A stretch of DNA of 58,109 nt from Ruminococcus sp. (GTDB lineage Bacteria; Bacillota; Clostridia; Oscillospirales; Ruminococcaceae), in assembly GCA_017441505.1 (NCBI GenBank), contig JAFRXL010000050.1, forward strand, positions 1 to 58,109, read 5' to 3'. Shown here piece by piece: positions 31,012-41,262 of the stretch. A model generated the notes under the pieces. It was not told the DNA's origin. It saw only the letters and a list, made by a program, of their open reading frames with translations, and ran no database searches. Every line of letters starts with the position of its first letter. The first letter of the stretch is position 1. The position numbers and the translations under genes were made by a program.

Positions 31012-31040
31012 TTGAAAAGTCCGGAGTATTATGTTATAAT
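31012..31040 (+). promoter_or_regulatory. Sigma-A promoter of the HPrK-like/PqqD/S26B operon
   Basis: TTGAAA (31012-31017), 17-bp spacer, TATAAT (31035-31040); start near 31047, about 22 nt before the first ATG. Confidence 0.78.
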
Positions 31041-31068: not shown

Positions 31069-31803
31069 ATGTTTATTGGTAAATATAAAATGGCAGATAA
31101 AGTGATAGAGGTCACTTCGATCTATAATAAAGTCCACGATTACTGCAAGGACTATAGATCTGAAGGTGAACCTGATTTTTCAGTAGTCACATCACAGGCT
31201 GATATAGAATATGAGAAGCAGCGTGAGCTGAAATGTGCCGAAGCTGAGGATCGTCAGCCGCTCGTTACATCTGATGATTATAGCGAGGAACTTGCGGTAT
31301 ACCGTAAAATAGCAGAAAAAATGCCGGACTATGACACTGTTTTATTTCATGGTTCAGTCATAGCGGTTGACGGTCAGGGATTTTTGTTCACTGCCAAATC
31401 CGGCACAGGAAAGTCCACACATACAAGGCTTTGGAGAGAATATCTCGGAGACAAAGCAGTAATGGTCAACGATGATAAGCCGCTTCTGAAGATAACAGAG
31501 GATTCTGTTATAGCCTATGGAACTCCATATAACGGCAAACACCGACTTGGAAGCAATATGTCGGTAAAGCTGAAAGGAATATGTGTGCTTACGAGAAGTC
31601 CGCAGAACAGCATATGCCGTATAACAAAGGCGGAGGCGTATTCAATGCTTCTGCAGCAGATATACCGTCCGGCTGACCCTGTACAAATGGCTAAGACTAT
31701 GAAGCTTGTCGACCGTATCGCCGAAAATACCGAGCTTTATAAGCTCGGATGCAATATGAATACAGAAGCGGCAGAAGTCGCATATAACGGAATGAAAGGA
31801 TGA
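31069..31803 (+). CDS. HPr-kinase/PEPCK-like P-loop protein
   Basis: 244 residues. Walker A is FTAKSGTGKSTHTRLW (about residues 106-121), followed by MVNDDKPLL and a PYNGKHRLG stretch, as in HPr kinase-like proteins that lack the HPr-binding N-terminal domain. The N-terminal 85 residues are different. Relatives occur in peptide-modification clusters, where some phosphorylate a precursor peptide. ATG 31069 has GGAGAG in front. It is first in a three-gene operon with PqqD-like and S26B-like proteins. Confidence 0.82.
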   Translation: MFIGKYKMADKVIEVTSIYNKVHDYCKDYRSEGEPDFSVVTSQADIEYEKQRELKCAEAEDRQPLVTSDDYSEELAVYRKIAEKMPDYDTVLFHGSVIAVDGQGFLFTAKSGTGKSTHTRLWREYLGDKAVMVNDDKPLLKITEDSVIAYGTPYNGKHRLGSNMSVKLKGICVLTRSPQNSICRITKAEAYSMLLQQIYRPADPVQMAKTMKLVDRIAENTELYKLGCNMNTEAAEVAYNGMKG

Positions 31804-31807
31804 TATT

Positions 31808-32068
31808 ATGAAACTCAGCAGCTCATTTATAACACATGACGATGGTGATGAAAAACTGGTCGTATCAACAGGAAGTGCAAATTTTTCCGGACTTGCAAGA
31901 GGAAATGCAACCGCAGGATTTATCATAAGCTGTCTTGAAAATGACACTACAGAGGACGAGATAGTTGATAAAATGCTCGAAAAATTTGATGCTCCGAGAG
32001 AGGTCATCGCAGAGGATGTGCATAAAATAGTTGAGCAGCTCAAAAGCATAGGTGCAATAGATGACTGA
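31808..32068 (+). CDS. PqqD-like peptide-chaperone protein
   Basis: 86 residues. It has the PqqD-like plan: N-terminal beta segment (KLVVSTGSANFSGLARGNATAGFI), then helices with NDTTEDEIVDKMLEKFDAPREVIAEDV and an ending EQLKSIGAIDD. PqqD domains bind leader peptides of ribosomally made peptides. It lies 4 bp after the HPrK-like gene and overlaps the next gene by 8 nt. Confidence 0.78.
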   Translation: MKLSSSFITHDDGDEKLVVSTGSANFSGLARGNATAGFIISCLENDTTEDEIVDKMLEKFDAPREVIAEDVHKIVEQLKSIGAIDD

Positions 32069-32492
32069 GCTTACATATGAGGAATACCTCGAAAAAAACG
32101 GCTCTATGACCTACAGCAATGTCGGCACGAGCATGATGCCACTGCTGAAACAGGGGCGTGACCTTTTTACTGTGACTAAAAAAGGCAGTGAGAGGTGCAG
32201 AAAATACGATGTAGTCCTCTACCGCCGACCGCCGGATAAATATGTGCTCCACAGAGTTGTAAAGGTCAGGGAAAACGACTATGTTATACTTGGCGATAAC
32301 TGCATAAATAAAGAGTACGGCATAACAGACGACGACATATTAGGCGTTATGACCAGCTTTGTCCATAAGGGCAAGCAGCATAAAGTGAATGATATGACAT
32401 ATAGGATATACAGTCACTTATGGGTCGACCTGTCATTTTTTCGTGTAAAGCTGAAAAAGCTCCGCATGAAGATAAAAAGAAAGAGAAAATGA
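32061..32492 (+). CDS. S24/S26-like peptidase with Ser-His type active site
   Basis: 143 residues. YSNVGTSMMPLL carries the nucleophile Ser in the SMxP-like motif. YDVVLYRRPP matches the RGDIV region, and VLHRVVKV has His where bacterial type I signal peptidases have Lys, as in the S26B (SipW-like) group. ILGDNC is the following loop. No membrane helix precedes the active site, so it may act in the cytosol; the C-terminal 35 residues are very basic. Overlap with the PqqD-like gene suggests a joint task such as trimming a bound peptide, which is inference. Confidence 0.78.
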   Translation: MTELTYEEYLEKNGSMTYSNVGTSMMPLLKQGRDLFTVTKKGSERCRKYDVVLYRRPPDKYVLHRVVKVRENDYVILGDNCINKEYGITDDDILGVMTSFVHKGKQHKVNDMTYRIYSHLWVDLSFFRVKLKKLRMKIKRKRK

Positions 32493-34054: not shown

Positions 34055-34984
34055 TCAAGGGTCTCTTGGAAATTTATCCTCGTAGACGCTTATTTCGGTT
34101 ATTACACCTCTTTGACTTCCCCTGACGGAGACAGCAGCGATCCTTTGAGAAATGATATTCTGAAACGTGACAATATCAGAAATATCCTCGCCGTTGTAGC
34201 CACTGTAGGAGCAGAAGAAGCGTTTTCTCGCACGGAAAGCGTATTTATCACGGAAAAGCAGGGCATCCTGAGGGTCACGGAGAAATTCCATATCGAGGTC
34301 CATATAGTGATGACGTACAATTTTAGCATTTACAACATCGGTATCTTCAAGTTCGTATTCGCCGTATTCGCCGGACATATCAGCCATATGGAAATGGCTT
34401 ATGAGCCTTTTGCCGGATATTTCAGAACCAACGGAGAGCAGCTGAGAATTGTTATAGGAAAATACAGCCGGCTGTGAAACAGGGGTTATCCTCACGCAGT
34501 TATCATCTCTGATATAAGGGTATCTTCCGCACTGACGATAAGCGAGATTGACGATAGAGTCCCACATGGTGGAATGTTTATCAACGTAGATATATCCGCT
34601 TGAATCGGAATTATTTTCGTGAGTGATATAAGGCAGGGGATAGAAGCTGTCCATGAGCTGATTGAAGGAGATGTTGAATTTTAGTCCCGGTTCGATCTGA
34701 TTCTGACCGAGCATGGAAGTGAATCCACGGGAGCTGAAAGAAGCAATTGAAGTGCCGCCGGACAAAGTTTCCGTAAGAGTATCTATAGTGCCGTGATGCA
34801 GAAGTTTGTTCCCGATATACAGCGAAACTTCGCAGGAGTTTTTAGGAATATCTGAGGAGCACCTGAGTTTTGCGTTCAGTACGGTATAGGGCAGATAAGC
34901 GTCTTTCCGGAAACTGAATGAAAGGAGTTCATTCTGATAGGTATACAGACCTGATGCGGTCTTGAAAAGTAAGCGGATATTCAT
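34055..34984 (-). CDS. Phage tail hub/baseplate protein (XkdQ-like)
   Basis: 309 residues. Opening and domain pattern resemble XkdQ/gpD-like tail-hub proteins of PBSX-type phages: beta-rich N-terminus (VLNAKLRC, VSLYIGNKLLHHGTID) and MWDSIVNLAYRQCGRYPYI before the second domain. It is last in the head block, and it is the only tail gene seen besides the small gene upstream. It overlaps that gene by 4 nt. No tape-measure, tube, sheath or fibre gene follows; the block ends at a terminator. Confidence 0.72.
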   Translation of the reverse strand: MNIRLLFKTASGLYTYQNELLSFSFRKDAYLPYTVLNAKLRCSSDIPKNSCEVSLYIGNKLLHHGTIDTLTETLSGGTSIASFSSRGFTSMLGQNQIEPGLKFNISFNQLMDSFYPLPYITHENNSDSSGYIYVDKHSTMWDSIVNLAYRQCGRYPYIRDDNCVRITPVSQPAVFSYNNSQLLSVGSEISGKRLISHFHMADMSGEYGEYELEDTDVVNAKIVRHHYMDLDMEFLRDPQDALLFRDKYAFRARKRFFCSYSGYNGEDISDIVTFQNIISQRIAAVSVRGSQRGVITEISVYEDKFPRDP

Positions 34985-35379
34985 TCAGTCACCTCGTTTA
35001 CAGCTGCCGGAGCCGGAGTTATAAGTGTGATAGAAGCATAGATGAAGTCGTCGCCCTTATCCTCGGCACGGAAGGACTGTATACGGCAATCCGTGAAAGA
35101 GAGTCCACGGTAGCCGGTGGAGAAAGAAACATTATTTCTCAGCATATAGCTTATATCAGTGATTATCGCAAGCGGAGAAGCTCCGCCTGAAATTCTGCCG
35201 CTGAAAGATAGCTTCATAGCTTTGGGAGCTGAGTTCGTGATAATATCGTCACCCGAAACAGAGGGAGCTTCCGAGAAAACTCTGCTGCCCTCCGCCTTGA
35301 ACTCCTCGCACCATAGAGTAATACTGCCGATAGAAACGGGAACGGCTTCTCTTTGGCTGATAGTGACTGTGCTGCTCAT
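34981..35379 (-). CDS. Small phage structural protein, unassigned
   Basis: 132 residues, beta-rich, no motif I recognise (SIGSITLWCEEFKAEG, MKLSFSGRISGG, YRGLSFTDCRIQSF). Its position between the neck protein and the hub gene, with 4-nt overlaps on both sides, makes a tail or baseplate component likely. Confidence 0.65.
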   Translation of the reverse strand: MSSTVTISQREAVPVSIGSITLWCEEFKAEGSRVFSEAPSVSGDDIITNSAPKAMKLSFSGRISGGASPLAIITDISYMLRNNVSFSTGYRGLSFTDCRIQSFRAEDKGDDFIYASITLITPAPAAVNEVTE

Positions 35380-35786
35380 ACAGGACTCCTTTCGTCTTTT
35401 ATCATACCTGCTGCTGAGAAGTCGACAGTAAGCACGAGCCTGTGGATATTAGAGTCCGGCTTAATGGTTATGTCGTTGATAGAGCTGTTAAGCGAGGACA
35501 TACTTTTTACAGCCGGAGCAATGATCTCGTCAAAATATGTATAGAGCCTGTCCATAGTCCAGCTCTCGGGAGCAGTTATGCGGAGCGAAATATCCGCTTT
35601 AAACGGTATATAGACATAATTCTGGGAGTATATCGGTACAGAGCTGCTGAACGAGCGTATCTCTGCAACCGAGAAGATACCCTTGCTTTTACGCTGGATG
35701 TCGACTGCATCGAAAGCACTGTACACTTCTTTGACACCGTGTTCAGTGAGGAGATTTATTATATCAGAAATTATAGTTTTCAGCAT
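35376..35786 (-). CDS. Phage neck/tail-completion-like protein
   Basis: 136 residues from ATG 35786, which has AAAGGAA upstream; a longer frame start lies inside the previous gene without a site. It is a small mixed alpha/beta protein (MLKTIISDIINLLTEHGVKE start, FKADISLRITAPESWTMDRLY). Place in the block after the connector suggests a head-closure or tail-terminator role; sequence alone does not prove it. Confidence 0.65.
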   Translation of the reverse strand: MLKTIISDIINLLTEHGVKEVYSAFDAVDIQRKSKGIFSVAEIRSFSSSVPIYSQNYVYIPFKADISLRITAPESWTMDRLYTYFDEIIAPAVKSMSSLNSSINDITIKPDSNIHRLVLTVDFSAAGMIKDERSPV

Positions 35787-36154
35787 GGTATCATTTCCTT
35801 TCCTGATGAAGTACCGAAGAATACAAAGGTCTTGGGACTTATGAGGTCGCTGCAAAGGGTAAGGTAGTCTCTCAGCATTCTTTCGGAGTATAAAAGTGCA
35901 GGGTTTGAGCTGTTGCTGTTCATTTTACCTGCGTAGGTATATTTGGAATTATCACGGGAGGCTTCTGCCTGTCGCAGACGGTAAGCTGCAATAGAAGCTG
36001 TGAGGAAGTCAAGACGAATATCTGAGCTGTCAGAGTCCGGCAGGAGCATTTTTTCAGTTTCGGTCATAGCGAGCTGAATGAAAGGAACGTAAGCACTTAT
36101 ATCGTCCTCGCCTATAAATAGGGCGAAAATAGACTTAACTGATTCTAAGTTCAT
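35780..36154 (-). CDS. Phage head-tail connector-like protein
   Basis: 124 residues, mostly helical (VKSIFALFIGEDDISAYVPFIQLAMTETEKML), similar in plan to gp6/YqbG-type connectors that sit beneath the portal. AGGAG precedes the ATG. Gap of 11 bp to the protease gene and 7-nt overlap with the next gene. Confidence 0.68.
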   Translation of the reverse strand: MNLESVKSIFALFIGEDDISAYVPFIQLAMTETEKMLLPDSDSSDIRLDFLTASIAAYRLRQAEASRDNSKYTYAGKMNSNSSNPALLYSERMLRDYLTLCSDLISPKTFVFFGTSSGKEMIPC

Positions 36155-36165
36155 TAGTCACACTC

Positions 36166-36999
36166 CTATCTCATTGAAAAGTCGGAAGTATTGTCGCTGT
36201 CTCCGGACTGCTCCTCAAGCTGGATCTCAATACCTCCTGAGGAGCGTTTTGCTTCGAGGGCTTTTTTTAGTTTTAAAAGCTGACTTGTGTCCATATTTTT
36301 AGATGATACAGCAACGGTGTCCGCAGCGAGTCTGCCTCCGGAGAAATATGCAAGTCTGCGGATGTCACGGCGAAGCTCCTCATCAGCTTTTTCGAGTATG
36401 GCATAAGCAGGTGAAGCAGCTGCCTGTTCGGAGCTGTAGTGCTTAGTTACACCTGCATTGACCTGAGCCGGAACAGCAACAAAGCTCCATTCATAAGCGT
36501 CTTTGATGTCATCAAGAATGGTGTGGCAAAGATTTTTGCCGTAGAGCTTGTTTGACTTGTGACCGCAATTTTGTACTGATTTATCGCATCCGCATACCGA
36601 GCATATCCTTTTTGCAGCAGAGCAGGATATGCTTACTTCCTTTTTGATGCCGCCGTCAATTTCAGCGATGAGGTCATGATTGTCAGCAGTCCTGACCATA
36701 TAAGCGTAAGCTTTGACGTATTTGTAAGGCGAGCCGTATTTAGTAGTGCGAGCCTCGTCAGTTATGAGTTCGGTATCAAAAATACGAGCAGTCTGATTTG
36801 AAGCACTTGGGTCGTGGTCGGAGATGCCGGTCTTACCGATGAAAAGACTGCATATCTGTTCAAGAGCATTGTCCGAGAAACGTTCGCAGTCACGGTCTAT
36901 TTCGTTATCACAGAGAATAACGGAGAATGTGTATATTTCGTCCTCTGTAAACTCACGTCTTGTGAATTTGTTTATCTTGGCAAGAGTTTCAGTATCCAT
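36166..36999 (-). CDS. Phage head maturation protease-like protein
   Basis: 277 residues. KTGISDHDPSASNQTARIFDTELI, KEVSISCSAAKRICSVCG and DAYEWSFVAVPAQVNAGVTK form the pattern I associate with prohead proteases in gut Clostridia prophages. The conserved His and Ser lie in the first two segments. A Cys-rich insert (CSVCGCDKSVQNCGH) may bind metal. The last 90 residues look scaffold-like. AAAGGCGG precedes the ATG. It lies after, not before, the capsid gene and is separated from it by the inverted-repeat element. Confidence 0.7.
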   Translation of the reverse strand: MDTETLAKINKFTRREFTEDEIYTFSVILCDNEIDRDCERFSDNALEQICSLFIGKTGISDHDPSASNQTARIFDTELITDEARTTKYGSPYKYVKAYAYMVRTADNHDLIAEIDGGIKKEVSISCSAAKRICSVCGCDKSVQNCGHKSNKLYGKNLCHTILDDIKDAYEWSFVAVPAQVNAGVTKHYSSEQAAASPAYAILEKADEELRRDIRRLAYFSGGRLAADTVAVSSKNMDTSQLLKLKKALEAKRSSGGIEIQLEEQSGDSDNTSDFSMR

Positions 37000-37021
37000 A
37001 ATTACCGCCTTTCTGTAGCAT

Positions 37022-37331
37022 TACCGCCCCCGTTGTTCGTGGTGACTGTGTAGAGTTTTTACGCTTCTTATTGAGGGAAACCCTTTTGAAAAAGGGTTCT
37101 CCCTCAAACTCCCTTCCTAAAACTTTCGGCTCTATTTTTTCCCCAGATAGGGTACTCCGGGAGTATTTTTAATTGACATATTTTTGAATATTTGAGAGTA
37201 CCCTATCTGGGGAAAAATCAATCTGAAAGTCTTTGGAAAGGGGTTCGGGGAAGAACCTTTCCTCAGAAAGGTTTGCCCCGATAAAAGGCGTATGATCCCT
37301 ATACCAGCACGACGAGCAACGGGGGACGGTA
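37022..37331. mobile_element. About 310-bp inverted-repeat (fold-back, MITE-like) element
   Basis: The left half 37022-37157 and the right half 37196-37331 are reverse complements with scattered mismatches. Outer ends TACCGCCCCCGTT / AACGGGGGACGGTA, middle segments GGGAAACCCTTTTGAAAAAGG-like, and a perfect inner stem TTTTTCCCCAGATAGGGTAC / its complement, around an AT-rich loop of about 40 bp. It contains no open frame of note and fills the whole capsid/protease gap. As RNA it would fold into one long hairpin. Target-site duplications are not obvious. Confidence 0.75.
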
Positions 37332-37338
37332 TATAATG

Positions 37339-38304
37339 TTAGTTACTGGATGTTACTTTGAGCAATTTTACGGCATCGGGAGTAATTTTTCTGAATCCGC
37401 AGGTAATAGAGACAGTGATCTGGTCGAGCTGGCGGTCGATGAGCTTATCGGTCTCCATAACGAGGTCGGTGCTGGTGATAAATTCGAGAGCGAAGCAGCG
37501 GTCGATACCGATGATAGTGGTATTATCAGCAGCGGAAGTCTTAACGAGTTCAGAGCCGAACGGGAGAATGAAACGGCCGTCAGAATCAGCAGAGCAATCC
37601 TTCATCTGATCCATAGCAGCGATCTTTGAAGCGAGTTCCGGAGAAGCTATAACTGTAGTCATATCGAAGCAGTCGAAGCTTCCATAGAGCTTAGCAAGAT
37701 CGTCATAAGTGAGGGCGGAAGTAGTTATCTGAGCCGCATCCTCAACAAGAGCGGCAACAGCATCCTTGACGACGGTCACAGCGAGTTTCACGCCGATGCT
37801 TCTGAGCATGATGCCGAAAACATCGAGTCTCTGCTGGCGGATAGCCTCATAAGAAGCACTGATAAGTCTGCCGTACTTAGCGAGGACTGTAGCGGTAGCA
37901 CTCTCCGTCACGGAAGCAGTCGGGAGCTGGTCAGCCTGTTCTGAGGCTGTATATTCCTCAGAGTCATCGAGAGTGCAGCCGAGGTACTGTCCGGAGCAGC
38001 TCATAGTTTTGGCTGCACATATGGAAGAGAGCACAGTCTCGTCGAAGCCTTTTCTGATACATCTTGTGACGAATTCAGGGAAGAGTACAGCAGTTTCGGT
38101 AGAGGAATAGAATTTTTCCACACGATCGCAGTCCGGACCGGAAATTCTTATATTGAAGCGTTTGAGCTGACGTTCAAAAGCGTCGAGCTTTTCGAGTGGA
38201 GTACCGGAGTAAGCAGAAGAGGGGTCAAGCTCTTCGAGGGCGGAAGTGAAAGATTTTCCGCTGAGATTGTAAAGACCTTTTTCGAGTTTAATATCGTTAT
38301 ACAT
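37339..38304 (-). CDS. Phage major capsid protein-like
   Basis: 321 residues. Helical N-terminal third, then segments typical of HK97-fold capsids (YTASEQADQLPTASVTESATA, KYGRLISASYEAIRQQ, LAVTVVKDAVAAL, SFDCFDMTTVIASPELASKI) and a beta-rich end (TVSITCGFRKITPDAVKLLK). GGAGG precedes the ATG. It follows the portal gene by 63 bp. Family assignment is by position and general pattern. Confidence 0.72.
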   Translation of the reverse strand: MYNDIKLEKGLYNLSGKSFTSALEELDPSSAYSGTPLEKLDAFERQLKRFNIRISGPDCDRVEKFYSSTETAVLFPEFVTRCIRKGFDETVLSSICAAKTMSCSGQYLGCTLDDSEEYTASEQADQLPTASVTESATATVLAKYGRLISASYEAIRQQRLDVFGIMLRSIGVKLAVTVVKDAVAALVEDAAQITTSALTYDDLAKLYGSFDCFDMTTVIASPELASKIAAMDQMKDCSADSDGRFILPFGSELVKTSAADNTTIIGIDRCFALEFITSTDLVMETDKLIDRQLDQITVSITCGFRKITPDAVKLLKVTSSN

Positions 38305-38367
38305 AAGTTTACCTCCAAAAATATAATTATTTTAAACAGAGAAGTGGCTGAGTCGGTCAAGCAGAAT

Positions 38368-39501
38368 TTAATTGATTTTATCAAGCCTGAGCTCGATTTC
38401 CCGTGCCTGAGCATTTTTAAGACGAGATTCCGCAAGAACGGATTCATCCTGTAGATTGATATTATCCCATTCGACACGGCAGGAAGCCTCAGAGCCTATA
38501 GAGCAGAGGAAGGAGTTTCCTATATCGCATATAATGGGAGTAAGCAGACGGCGGTAGTATTCAAGCTCGGAAGTGAGAATATCCGCCTGCTGAGAGGACA
38601 TTCTCTCGGTACTGCTCCAGCTAAGTCCGAGCAAAAACGGCGGTATAGAGAGTTTAGCTATGAGCTGTTCGAGTATCTGCCGAACAGGGATATTGGTGTC
38701 GAACATTTTGTTATCAGCACCGATGACCTTAATATCAACGTCCCCGACAGCAATGAAGTCCTTGACCTGACCGTATTTAGCGGAATTCATACCGTCCGCC
38801 CACTGCTCGGCTATCTGCTGAGCACGTTCACGGGAGTAAATAACATCTCCGGGGTCGGACTGAGGTCTGTATGTTACTGCATATCTCACATTGCCGGCAC
38901 GGTCGAAGTTCTGACCGATACACTGGTATATTCTAAGGAGAATACTGCTGAGTGACGGAAGACCTCTTAAAACCGAGTGACCTCCGGTGAGAGAAGCGTA
39001 GAGGATGCGTTCGGGATGGGATATAGTTCTTAAAGAGCCGTCAGCCTTACGGAATGAATAGCGGCGGTCGAAAGGGTCAGAGCCGGAATATACCTTTATT
39101 CTGGATATATCACCGTTCCATAGACCGGATATAGTGGAATTTTTATTATCGGGGACTATCTCGCCTATCGCACTGCCGTAGGTTATAAGACTGTCGAGGA
39201 AATTATCGGCAAAGCAGTTCACCGAGCGTCCGGTAAGTCCGACAGGGACGTTATCGAGAAAATTATCGAGAGCATCCTGTACATTTTCATCCGAGCAGAT
39301 GACTTTGAAACCTCCGGTCAGTCTGATTATCTTCATTATAGCGGCATCGATTATGGGAACAGCCGCTCTTAGTCTGTCGTAGAGTTCTTTTTCAGCCTGT
39401 TCCATTACGGTAGGCAGAGCTGTATCACCACATGGACTTCGCATAGCGGCGGCTATCTCCGGAACATTTCTGCCGGAGTTTTTTCGTCTGAAAAGTTTCA
39501 T
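38368..39501 (-). CDS. Phage portal protein
   Basis: 377 residues with portal-like features: PIIDAAIMKIIRLTGGFKVIC, a long central region, IPPFLLGLSWSSTERMSSQQADILTSELEYYRRLLTPI near the end, and C-terminal helices. It forms the DNA entry ring where terminase docks. AAGGAGG lies just before the ATG; 32 bp after terL. Confidence 0.85.
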   Translation of the reverse strand: MKLFRRKNSGRNVPEIAAAMRSPCGDTALPTVMEQAEKELYDRLRAAVPIIDAAIMKIIRLTGGFKVICSDENVQDALDNFLDNVPVGLTGRSVNCFADNFLDSLITYGSAIGEIVPDNKNSTISGLWNGDISRIKVYSGSDPFDRRYSFRKADGSLRTISHPERILYASLTGGHSVLRGLPSLSSILLRIYQCIGQNFDRAGNVRYAVTYRPQSDPGDVIYSRERAQQIAEQWADGMNSAKYGQVKDFIAVGDVDIKVIGADNKMFDTNIPVRQILEQLIAKLSIPPFLLGLSWSSTERMSSQQADILTSELEYYRRLLTPIICDIGNSFLCSIGSEASCRVEWDNINLQDESVLAESRLKNAQAREIELRLDKIN

Positions 39502-39533
39502 AAAACCTCCTTTTAAGGAAACTGAACGGTGTA

Positions 39534-40781
39534 TTATCTTGCGACTGAAAAGGTAAAGAGTTCATCGCCGCACTTATCACGGAGCATATCCGCCACGAAG
39601 TAACGCATATCATCCATAGCGTGGTCATTCTCTTTTATGGGAGCATCCACACCGGCTTTTTCACTCCACCTGTAGAGGTGAAATTCATGTATTATATCTC
39701 TGCACGAGCAATGAAATCTGAGTTTATTCTCACGCAGAGCATTGCTCACCTGACGAATACCTGTGATAACGTCATTTTCGGCTTTAGCCACTCTGAATCT
39801 GCGGTGTCTGCGGATACACTCAATAAAACTTGCTGCGGACGGGTCGACGATGACCTTACTTATATTCAGATTTCCTGCAAGTTCTTCAAGAGCGGCGTAA
39901 TGTTCCTCATCGGTTCGTGAGACTCCCGTTTTTTTCGAGGAGTAATAATACTCCCTTATGCGGTACCACACGCCTTTGTTAAGTCCCCAAAGACCGAATG
40001 ACGAGGGATTGACAGTGCCGTAATCACAAGATATGACGTATTTTTCGCAAATTACATCTTCTGAGAAAACGTGTATTTTTTCGTTGAACATAGGATACAC
40101 CACACCCTCCGAAGCGGTCCATTTGCCGAGAACGAACCGGTCGAAAAAGGCTCCGGAGTAAAGCCGCCTGTAGCGGTTTTTCATAGCTTCTGAGAGTGAA
40201 GGGTTATCATCCATAGTGAAGTGAAGATACAGTGCATTTTTTTCTTCAGCCTTTTTTATCCACTCATTATAGAACCAATGTGAGGGATTATCAGGATTGC
40301 AGTTGAACCACATTTTCGAGCCGTTTACTGAGCATCTTGCCAGAGCCTGTTCAACGAAAGACCGAGGCATCAGAGCAGCCTCATCAAAGAAAACTCCCGA
40401 AAGAGTCATTCCTTGGATCAGAGCTGCGGAGCTTTCGTCCTTACCGCCGAACAGGTAAAAACGGTTTGTGTTGCCGAACATAGTGATGTCGATATAATTG
40501 CAGCTTACTTTTTCAGAGCAGACCGCACCGAGGTCGGAGAGCAGCGGAAAGATCGGTGTGACCACATTTCTTCGCAGAGAGGTGATAGTCTTGCCGCAAA
40601 GAGCAAAAGCGTTGCCGTTGAAACTGGCTGAGGCCCAGAAGATAAATCCCACTGACATAGAAAGTGTTTTACCGCTTCTCACAGCACCGTCGCATATGAT
40701 AGCGTCACGTTTCTTATAGCGGGGATTCTTCCACCAGTTCATGGTAAGCCTTTGTTTTGGAGAAAGATCACTGATCTTCAA
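39534..40781 (-). CDS. Phage terminase large subunit (PBSX/XtmB type)
   Basis: 415 residues from a TTG at 40781. ATPase motif DGAVRSGKTLSMSVGFIFWA (Walker A), GVFFDEAALMPRSFVEQAL (Walker B), then the nuclease half with VISCDYGTVNPSSFGLW (first acidic residue), VDPSAASFIECIRR and DDMRYFVADML at the end. GGAAGG stands about 7 nt before the TTG; it overlaps terS by 14 nt. It packages DNA into proheads. All key motifs appear intact. Confidence 0.9.
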   Translation of the reverse strand: MKISDLSPKQRLTMNWWKNPRYKKRDAIICDGAVRSGKTLSMSVGFIFWASASFNGNAFALCGKTITSLRRNVVTPIFPLLSDLGAVCSEKVSCNYIDITMFGNTNRFYLFGGKDESSAALIQGMTLSGVFFDEAALMPRSFVEQALARCSVNGSKMWFNCNPDNPSHWFYNEWIKKAEEKNALYLHFTMDDNPSLSEAMKNRYRRLYSGAFFDRFVLGKWTASEGVVYPMFNEKIHVFSEDVICEKYVISCDYGTVNPSSFGLWGLNKGVWYRIREYYYSSKKTGVSRTDEEHYAALEELAGNLNISKVIVDPSAASFIECIRRHRRFRVAKAENDVITGIRQVSNALRENKLRFHCSCRDIIHEFHLYRWSEKAGVDAPIKENDHAMDDMRYFVADMLRDKCGDELFTFSVAR

Positions 40782-41262
40782 CAATATCACCTTCCTCTGC
40801 GGAAGAGGTAAGAGCCGACATAAGGTCATCAGCTTTACTGCGGTCGCTGAAAGCAGTTTCGAGCTCATAAAGTTTTTCGAGAGCTTTCAGCCTGTCGAAT
40901 AGTTTTACCTCAACTCCGCCGTTTTTATCACGTTTTATCTCTGATACGTTGAAAAGGTCGAGTTCAGAGATAACATCGGGCGGCGGTAGCTCCTCGGCGA
41001 ATACCAGTCTTACAGCGTCAGTACAGCTTCCGAAAGCGAGCCTTTTAAGCCCAGCCATGACGTTACCGCTGTCCGACAAAGCATCTCTGTATCTGGAGAT
41101 CTTACGTCTGCAACAGACGCTGTTCAGAGCTTTTAGTCCCTCTGAGAGAGCGGACTTGCTGCTGAAACCAGCTTTCAGAGCCGCTTCAGCGGCATTGCCG
41201 AGAACAGCATAATAGCAGCAGAAAGCGTTCCGTTTGCTTATTTTTTCTTTATCGTCCTGCAA
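40768..41262 (-). CDS. Phage terminase small subunit
   Basis: 164 residues from TTG 41262, chosen because AAGGAGGT stands 8 nt upstream; an upstream in-frame ATG lacks a site. N-terminal helix-turn-helix region (RNAFCCYYAVLGNAAEAALKAGFSSKSAL) as in terminase small subunits of the PBSX type, then a helical C-terminus. First gene of the head block. Upstream, a terminator at 41354-41382 separates it from the lipoprotein gene, and I see no good promoter. Confidence 0.8.
   Translation of the reverse strand: MQDDKEKISKRNAFCCYYAVLGNAAEAALKAGFSSKSALSEGLKALNSVCCRRKISRYRDALSDSGNVMAGLKRLAFGSCTDAVRLVFAEELPPPDVISELDLFNVSEIKRDKNGGVEVKLFDRLKALEKLYELETAFSDRSKADDLMSALTSSAEEGDIVEDQ

Follow-up and report, generated by a model that had tools for sequence, protein, structure and literature searches.

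A kinase-like protein, a leader-binding fold and a soluble peptidase, encoded by three small neighbouring genes in Ruminococcus sp., raise the question of which substrate they serve. The sequence-only reading of the window (the whole stretch of 58,109 nucleotides analysed here) had proposed a stand-alone system for modification of a peptide or protein encoded elsewhere. The window makes up one whole contig, C27, of a 2.24-Mb assembly with 79.6% completeness. We now conclude, with a probability of about 0.8, that the three genes encode the maturation core of a RiPP system of Clostridia, working in trans and of the type of the linear polyphosphorylated peptides (LPP), which were described in Bacilli in May 2026 with the lppAKBSDN genes of Paenibacillus alginolyticus (PMC13381572). 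The gene set, the conserved residues, the precursor family, its co-occurrence with the kinase and the dispersed pairing with secreted proteins were all computed directly.

The three-gene operon and its relatives

The three ORFs lie on the same strand, with a gap of 4 bp between the kinase and PqqD genes and an overlap of 8 bp between the PqqD and peptidase genes. Their predicted products are as follows.

31069..31803, + strand: HPrK-like peptide kinase (LppK-like), 244 aa; profile matches below cut-off, conserved residues and the start in relatives
31808..32068, + strand: PqqD-type RiPP recognition element (RRE; LppB-like), 86 aa; PF05402 at E 3.4e-13, profile matching lasso B1 proteins and LppB
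32061..32492, + strand: soluble S26B-type Ser-His-Asp peptidase (LppS-like), 143 aa; sigpep_I_arch at E 9.4e-9 (below cut-off) and conserved residues

A longer kinase frame starting with TTG at 31012 is not supported, since the starts of relatives fall at about 31069. The PqqD protein scored 50.1 bits against Pfam PF05402 (gathering score 23.4), indicating that it belongs to the PqqD family. All matches of the kinase were under the curated cut-offs (Hpr_kinase_C, E 0.003; HPr kinase TIGR00679, E 4.7e-5; ScmC, E 2.7e-5), and the peptidase likewise reached no curated cut-off, its match to sigpep_I_arch being a sub-cut-off one. Residues H94, K115, D135 and D136 of the kinase were invariant in all 51 aligned sequences, that is, the window and 50 of 61 relatives among the matches listed, and this fits the His-Lys-Asp-Asp motif given for lasso kinases in PMC9266682. 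Within a wider kinase set (n=24), D135 was replaced by Gly in three sequences (L046-L048). For the peptidase, S24, H64 and D79 were invariant in 40 of 40 aligned sequences, which include the Ser and His of the S26 family, type B, and its sequence is without a hydrophobic N-terminal stretch. The earlier assignment of the trio as HPrK-like kinase, PqqD protein and soluble S26 peptidase is thus borne out by the ORFs, the profile matches and the invariant catalytic residues; as a placement by profile search it holds above the Pfam cut-off for PqqD, and below the curated cut-offs for the kinase and the peptidase.

The organization of the locus in relatives was examined for the best 80 of 573 named stretches matching the kinase, many of which end at contig ends. 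Genes were counted by six-frame scan if they shared the strand of the kinase and lay no more than 6 kb from it; counts by the gene caller were lower because overlapping genes were missed. The PqqD gene was found near the kinase in 62 of these 80 loci and the S26 gene in 56, and the complete trio was present in 52 of the 80 and in 21 of 35 same-family loci, the two sets sharing at least two contigs. Scattering of the trio in relatives had been named beforehand as a point against its being one system; the trio recurs as a unit in both sets of loci, and its arrangement is not due to chance. The pair of genes often following it encodes an ABC exporter and an NTP_transf_5 protein (PF14907); they were detected near the kinase in 32 and 33 of the best 80, respectively, and all five genes stood on one strand within 6 kb in 19. 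The proposal of a stand-alone system needs correction in one respect, as the trio often belongs to a five-gene set. The best eleven named kinase matches, with identities of 64-71%, are all labelled Ruminococcus, including four R. flavefaciens. A kinase relative was present in 31 of the 197 genomes of the family, and none was found in the viral contigs searched.

On the same strand, 3' of the trio, the window carries a stand-alone Sfp-type phosphopantetheinyl transferase (PF01648; 32843-33376, +) and a small protein with a dockerin type I match (PF00404; 33577-33996, +), the latter pointing to a cellulosome-type Ruminococcus. A block of phage structural genes at 34055-40868 (-), with terminase (PF03237, PF04466; 39537-40868), capsid (PF25209; 37342-38304) and three further scanned proteins giving no Pfam match, looks like part of a prophage.

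Candidate precursors encoded apart from the trio

Search of the window ORFs gave no precursor-like ORF, in agreement with the missing local precursor reported before; the single regex match, opposite the capsid gene of the phage block, was an unrelated ORF. The neighbourhood survey that had been suggested for conserved small ORFs and radical SAM genes gave both: leader-bearing small ORFs close to the kinase gene, for the most part upstream, in a portion of the relatives, and radical SAM genes near some of the peptides. The encoded peptides are mostly 30-60 aa long and carry the leader Y..PEMEV..F..EDVITTS. In 28 of the 80 named loci (best 80 of 573), a peptide gene precedes the kinase gene by at most 1.8 kb. 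Over these loci the profile gave 40 matches of at least 12 bits, of which 39 were on the kinase strand, and three dinucleotide shuffles of the same loci gave none at that score.

After removal of L205 (two peptides, overlapping L045), 72 of 74 peptides were kept as the distinct set. Tyr was present within the first 12 residues of 66 of them and a strict YxxP in 37, and the Ser of the boundary motif VITTS in 65, with no further Ser in the core of 43. The N-terminal half is conserved and the C-terminal half variable; the cores are net negative in 69 of the 72 and have a median length of 14 aa. Tandem copies show much the same leader with different cores (L143, L165, L194). Of eight peptides scanned, NCBIfam matched none and Pfam one at chance level (E 0.06). 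Enzyme-neighbourhood searches would miss such a family when the genes are far apart. The PDB was uninformative for the leader profile (no chain at E <=10) and for the kinase profile.

A profile made from five peptides detected two candidate precursors in the genome of the window (G000), both on other contigs, and candidates for the remaining parts were found on a third.

G000:C2:47148-47282, + strand: candidate precursor 1 (five-peptide profile), 23 bp behind the gene of a 988-aa secreted protein
G000:C53:73705-73815, - strand: candidate precursor 2 (five-peptide profile), 13 bp behind the gene of a 1929-aa secreted protein
G000:C10:62888-64591: ABC exporter orthologue, 58% identity over its length (next best 28%)
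C10:134573-135289: NTP_transf_5, single copy in the genome

With the trio on C27, precursors on C2 and C53, and exporter and NTP_transf_5 on C10, a candidate exists for every part of the system on four contigs. The earlier suggestion of a substrate encoded elsewhere thus gains two candidate genes, and that of a peptide-modification pathway agrees with the enzyme set, which is that of the RiPP pathway described in the main text of PMC13381572.

The peptide and the kinase were then counted over whole genomes. Among the 197 genomes of the family, 19 gave a peptide match and 17 of these carried the kinase, so that the peptide was present in 17 of 31 kinase genomes versus 2 of 166 others (p 2.8e-14); this count retains the match of G040 (E 0.0036), which is inside a frame of 1865 codons and probably spurious. 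The same relation was observed at the level of genus (13 of 23 with the kinase versus 1 of 102 without) and when the six source genomes of query peptides were set aside (11 of 25 versus 2 of 166, p 1.3e-9). For a class-wide sample of 391 genomes, which may include source genomes of the query peptides (G000 being the sole known one), the kinase was present in 38 of the 39 peptide genomes (p 7e-23). At the thresholds used, no peptide was detected in 14 of the 31 kinase genomes of the family, nor in 70 of the 108 of the class, among them 26 of the 64 with the closer kinase group, a group delimited by E-value once the search was done. Peptides without a kinase match occur in G177 and G454; G019, of the same genus, has neither. 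Peptides can far outnumber kinases within a genome: 15 with one kinase in G212, 14 with two in G411 and 15 with two in G213.

The link between trio and peptides is supported because they co-occur, because the peptide genes in part of the relatives lie close upstream of the kinase with the shuffled control blank, because the genome of the window has peptides of its own, and because of the boundary Ser and the parallel between Cys cores and radical SAM genes given below. We read this family, from its sequence features, as the putative RiPP precursors of the trio and hence as its previously missing substrate.

Putative secreted partners, stalk proteins and cysteine cores

For 45 of the 72 peptides, a non-cassette gene of more than 250 aa ends within 160 bp upstream. 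By a crude rule, 35 of these 45 upstream proteins are signal-peptide-like, as compared with 222 of the 807 remaining large genes (p 1.6e-11), and the median length of the upstream proteins is 898 versus 394. The upstream protein of 29 of the 72 peptides contains a domain some 235 aa long, in most cases at the C-terminus, which was detected in 36 of 996 large genes with a profile built from nine of the upstream proteins. Its two matches in the genome of the window are the 988-aa and 1929-aa proteins; the profile includes one row from the latter and none from the former, in which the domain is located in the N-terminal half and not C-terminally.

The idea that a peptide accompanies every secreted protein bearing the Ruminococcus C-terminal domain proved wrong. 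The domain was found at 33 places in 16 of the 197 genomes, and among 19 downstream regions examined up to 500 bp from the match, two of them cut by contig ends, peptides were present behind two, both in G177. In G117, the domain occurs at six places, and a single peptide was detected.

Pairing was also observed in genomes rich in peptides. Of the 15 G212 peptides, 13 were examined, and every one lies behind a protein that carries a different C-terminal block, about 100 aa long; a signal peptide is visible in 12 of the 13 proteins, and the gaps are below 50 bp except one of 228 bp. Twelve of the thirteen block proteins (L208-L219) have similar signal peptides, all thirteen have their own precursor behind them, and many of the cores end in an SW.DIYG-like sequence. 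Six of the 14 G411 peptides were examined; each lies 13-22 bp behind a gene, and of these six genes four show a signal peptide and two are cut at the contig end.

Some loci also encode low-complexity, membrane-anchored stalk proteins, and an ELPFVP-type C-terminus is seen in 17 of the 27 candidates, a count that includes one contig twice. Those with a C-terminal ELPFVPx include L133 9440-9946, L153 9466-9951, L136 6361-6798 and others, and in the one stalk protein scanned Pfam sees only a PT repeat. Certain peptides, for example in L133 and L093, end like stalk proteins. The ELPFVP-type motif, a pattern written after viewing the data, was present in 16 of 60 cores versus 2.3 expected. The C-termini of peptides and stalk proteins matched within loci (12 loci, p 0.002), the effect being due to a small number of loci, above all L102 and L139, while L035 and L039 scored under their mispaired mean. 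We take both the motif and the match as leads. The exact ELPFVP pattern gave no match in the genome of the window, so that a stalk protein is not shown there.

A branch of peptides with Cys in the core and the common leader is found near radical SAM-type genes (L045, L051, L108, L109, L149, L176, L178, L180, L181). When such a gene was defined by a CxxxCxxC pattern on the same strand, Cys was present in the core of 10 of 10 peptides within 6 kb of one versus 1 of 62 others (p 2e-11); the relation was spotted first and counted afterwards. Pfam confirmed radical SAM in both proteins scanned (L045, L178). Possibly this branch represents thioether peptides that also meet the kinase, and it would offer a natural swap on one common leader, between the kinase set alone and the kinase set plus a radical SAM enzyme.

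Proposed pathway, rival explanations and known systems

The trio is assigned to an LPP-type core because the kinase-PqqD-S26-ABC-NTP operon of relatives equals the LPP core set as given in the main text of PMC13381572, and we infer LPP chemistry because enzymes of these types occur here together with a leader whose Tyr and Ser are spaced almost as in LPP. As described there, LppB binds the YxxP leader, and LppK adds several phosphates to core Ser3, accepting Ser and neither Thr nor Tyr. LppS, dependent on Ser, His and Asp, gives no cleavage alone and cleavage together with LppB, unphosphorylated precursor being cleaved poorly. Deletion of lppN made no visible change in the host used, and the role of LPPs is stated in that paper as unknown. 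By analogy, the PqqD protein would bind short precursors from genes located elsewhere by their leader (Y..P..), the HPrK-like kinase would place phosphate on the nearly invariant Ser of the boundary motif VITTS, and the S26B peptidase, with the leader presented by PqqD, would cut beside this Ser. The distant NTP_transf_5 enzyme may decorate the phosphate, the distant ABC transporter may export the short acidic phosphopeptide, and the product may act with the secreted protein encoded directly upstream of its gene.

A further-reaching proposal, which we regard as tentative, is that, in many Clostridia, one trans-acting phosphopeptide cassette matures dispersed tiny peptides, each encoded with a secreted protein of lineage-specific C-terminal domain, and that the modified peptide is a ligand or anchor holding or releasing these proteins at the cell surface and not an antibiotic; the stalk proteins, with the same ELPFVP-type motif at their C-terminus, would read the same receptor. 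The peptides might instead serve the secreted proteins as small partners, structural or regulatory, and be no RiPP precursors at all, with the trio acting on secreted or stalk proteins. Their frequent position directly behind large, mostly signal-peptide-like genes and the C-terminus common to stalk proteins and some peptides agree with this. Yet a conserved N-terminal and variable C-terminal half, tandem copies alike in leader and different in core, Cys cores matched to radical SAM genes and an RRE in the operon all argue for precursors, and we consider this alternative unlikely.

It is also quite unlikely that the trio represents the tailoring enzymes left from a paeninodin-like lasso cluster, with cyclase and B2 peptidase lost or on a missing contig. 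HPrK, PqqD and NTP_transf_5 do occur in paeninodin-like and ruminal lasso clusters as far as these are described, the leader resembles lasso leaders, and the genome of the window is only about 80% complete. The lasso leader peptidase domain Transglut_core3 (PF13471, B2), however, is above cut-off in 3 of 197 genomes of the family, all three lacking the kinase; weaker matches (E <=0.001) occur in 29 of the 197, one of them a kinase genome (G035), and the genome of the window gave no match. Moreover, an S26 peptidase occupies the B2 position, and the cores are short. No macrolactam synthetase was seen in the operons. That the kinase is a housekeeping HPr kinase for catabolite control, in an operon unrelated to peptides, seems highly improbable: its match to TIGR00679 amounts to 22.8 bits versus a cut-off of 240, and it is linked to PqqD, S26 and peptide genes. 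We thus keep the LPP-type core working in trans as the preferred reading of the trio.

Among other known systems, ScmC of SynChlorMet and the HprK-related kinases A and B share an HPrK-like kinase, and the SynChlorMet cassette has a PqqD partner, but the window kinase scores 23.7 versus the ScmC cut-off of 125, and 17.2 and 12.6 versus 200 for kinases A and B. Prochlorosins are the product of one maturation enzyme serving many dispersed precursors, through lanthipeptide synthetase chemistry; to our knowledge, their precursors are not paired with secreted proteins. The paeninodin and pseudomycoidin systems (PadeK, ThcoK, PsmK, PsmN), as presented in PMC9266682 and PMC7533575, resemble the present one in the HPrK-like kinase with His-Lys-Asp-Asp and in clusters with PqqD-like B1, NTP-transferase and ABC exporter (LasD), but B2 is absent here and the conserved Ser marks the boundary of the leader instead of lying at the C-terminus.

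The closest likeness is to LPP. According to the main text of PMC13381572, both systems use the same five enzyme types (HprK-like kinase, discrete RRE, SpI-like peptidase, MsbA-like exporter and NTP transferase), and both precursors have a conserved N-terminal leader and a variable C-terminus. The Y..P start of the leader and the Ser next to its end agree in part, with strict YxxP in 37 and the boundary Ser in 65 of the 72 peptides here; the Tyr-to-Ser spacing is 18 in the printed LPP consensus and 19 in the first row here. Both have an S26/SipW-like leader peptidase with Ser-His-Asp, a likeness of type, as LppS and the window peptidase were not aligned, and no cyclase is seen in either set of genes. 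That text contains none of the terms clostridi-, ruminococc-, lipoprotein and radical SAM, and its supplements may list clostridial clusters. In the literature searched, we found no second LPP paper, nothing on this clostridial peptide system, and none of the strings ELPFVP, EDVITTS, DVITTSG and DVITASG.

Against full LPP membership stand the leader, Y..PEMEV..F..EDVITTS here versus YxxPxVLxHQxIxFETxxS in Bacilli; the RRE, since LppB (9x8z) came fourth among solved structures matched by the PqqD profile, after TbiB1, TfuB1 and PbaB1, and is no closer than the lasso B1 proteins; and the precursor gene, which is absent from the window and near the kinase in the 28 of 80 relatives (best 80 of 573) given above. 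Unlike the LPP genes of that main text, the clostridial precursor genes are scattered in trans, often behind secreted proteins and with as many as 15 in one genome, and the set includes a radical SAM branch with Cys cores and stalk proteins with a common C-terminus. This location behind secreted proteins is a strong hint at what LPP phosphopeptides act with. Our verdict, drawn from sequence comparison, is that the system is probably a variant of the LPP kind, with the same machinery, in Clostridia, and with dispersed precursors tied to secreted proteins.
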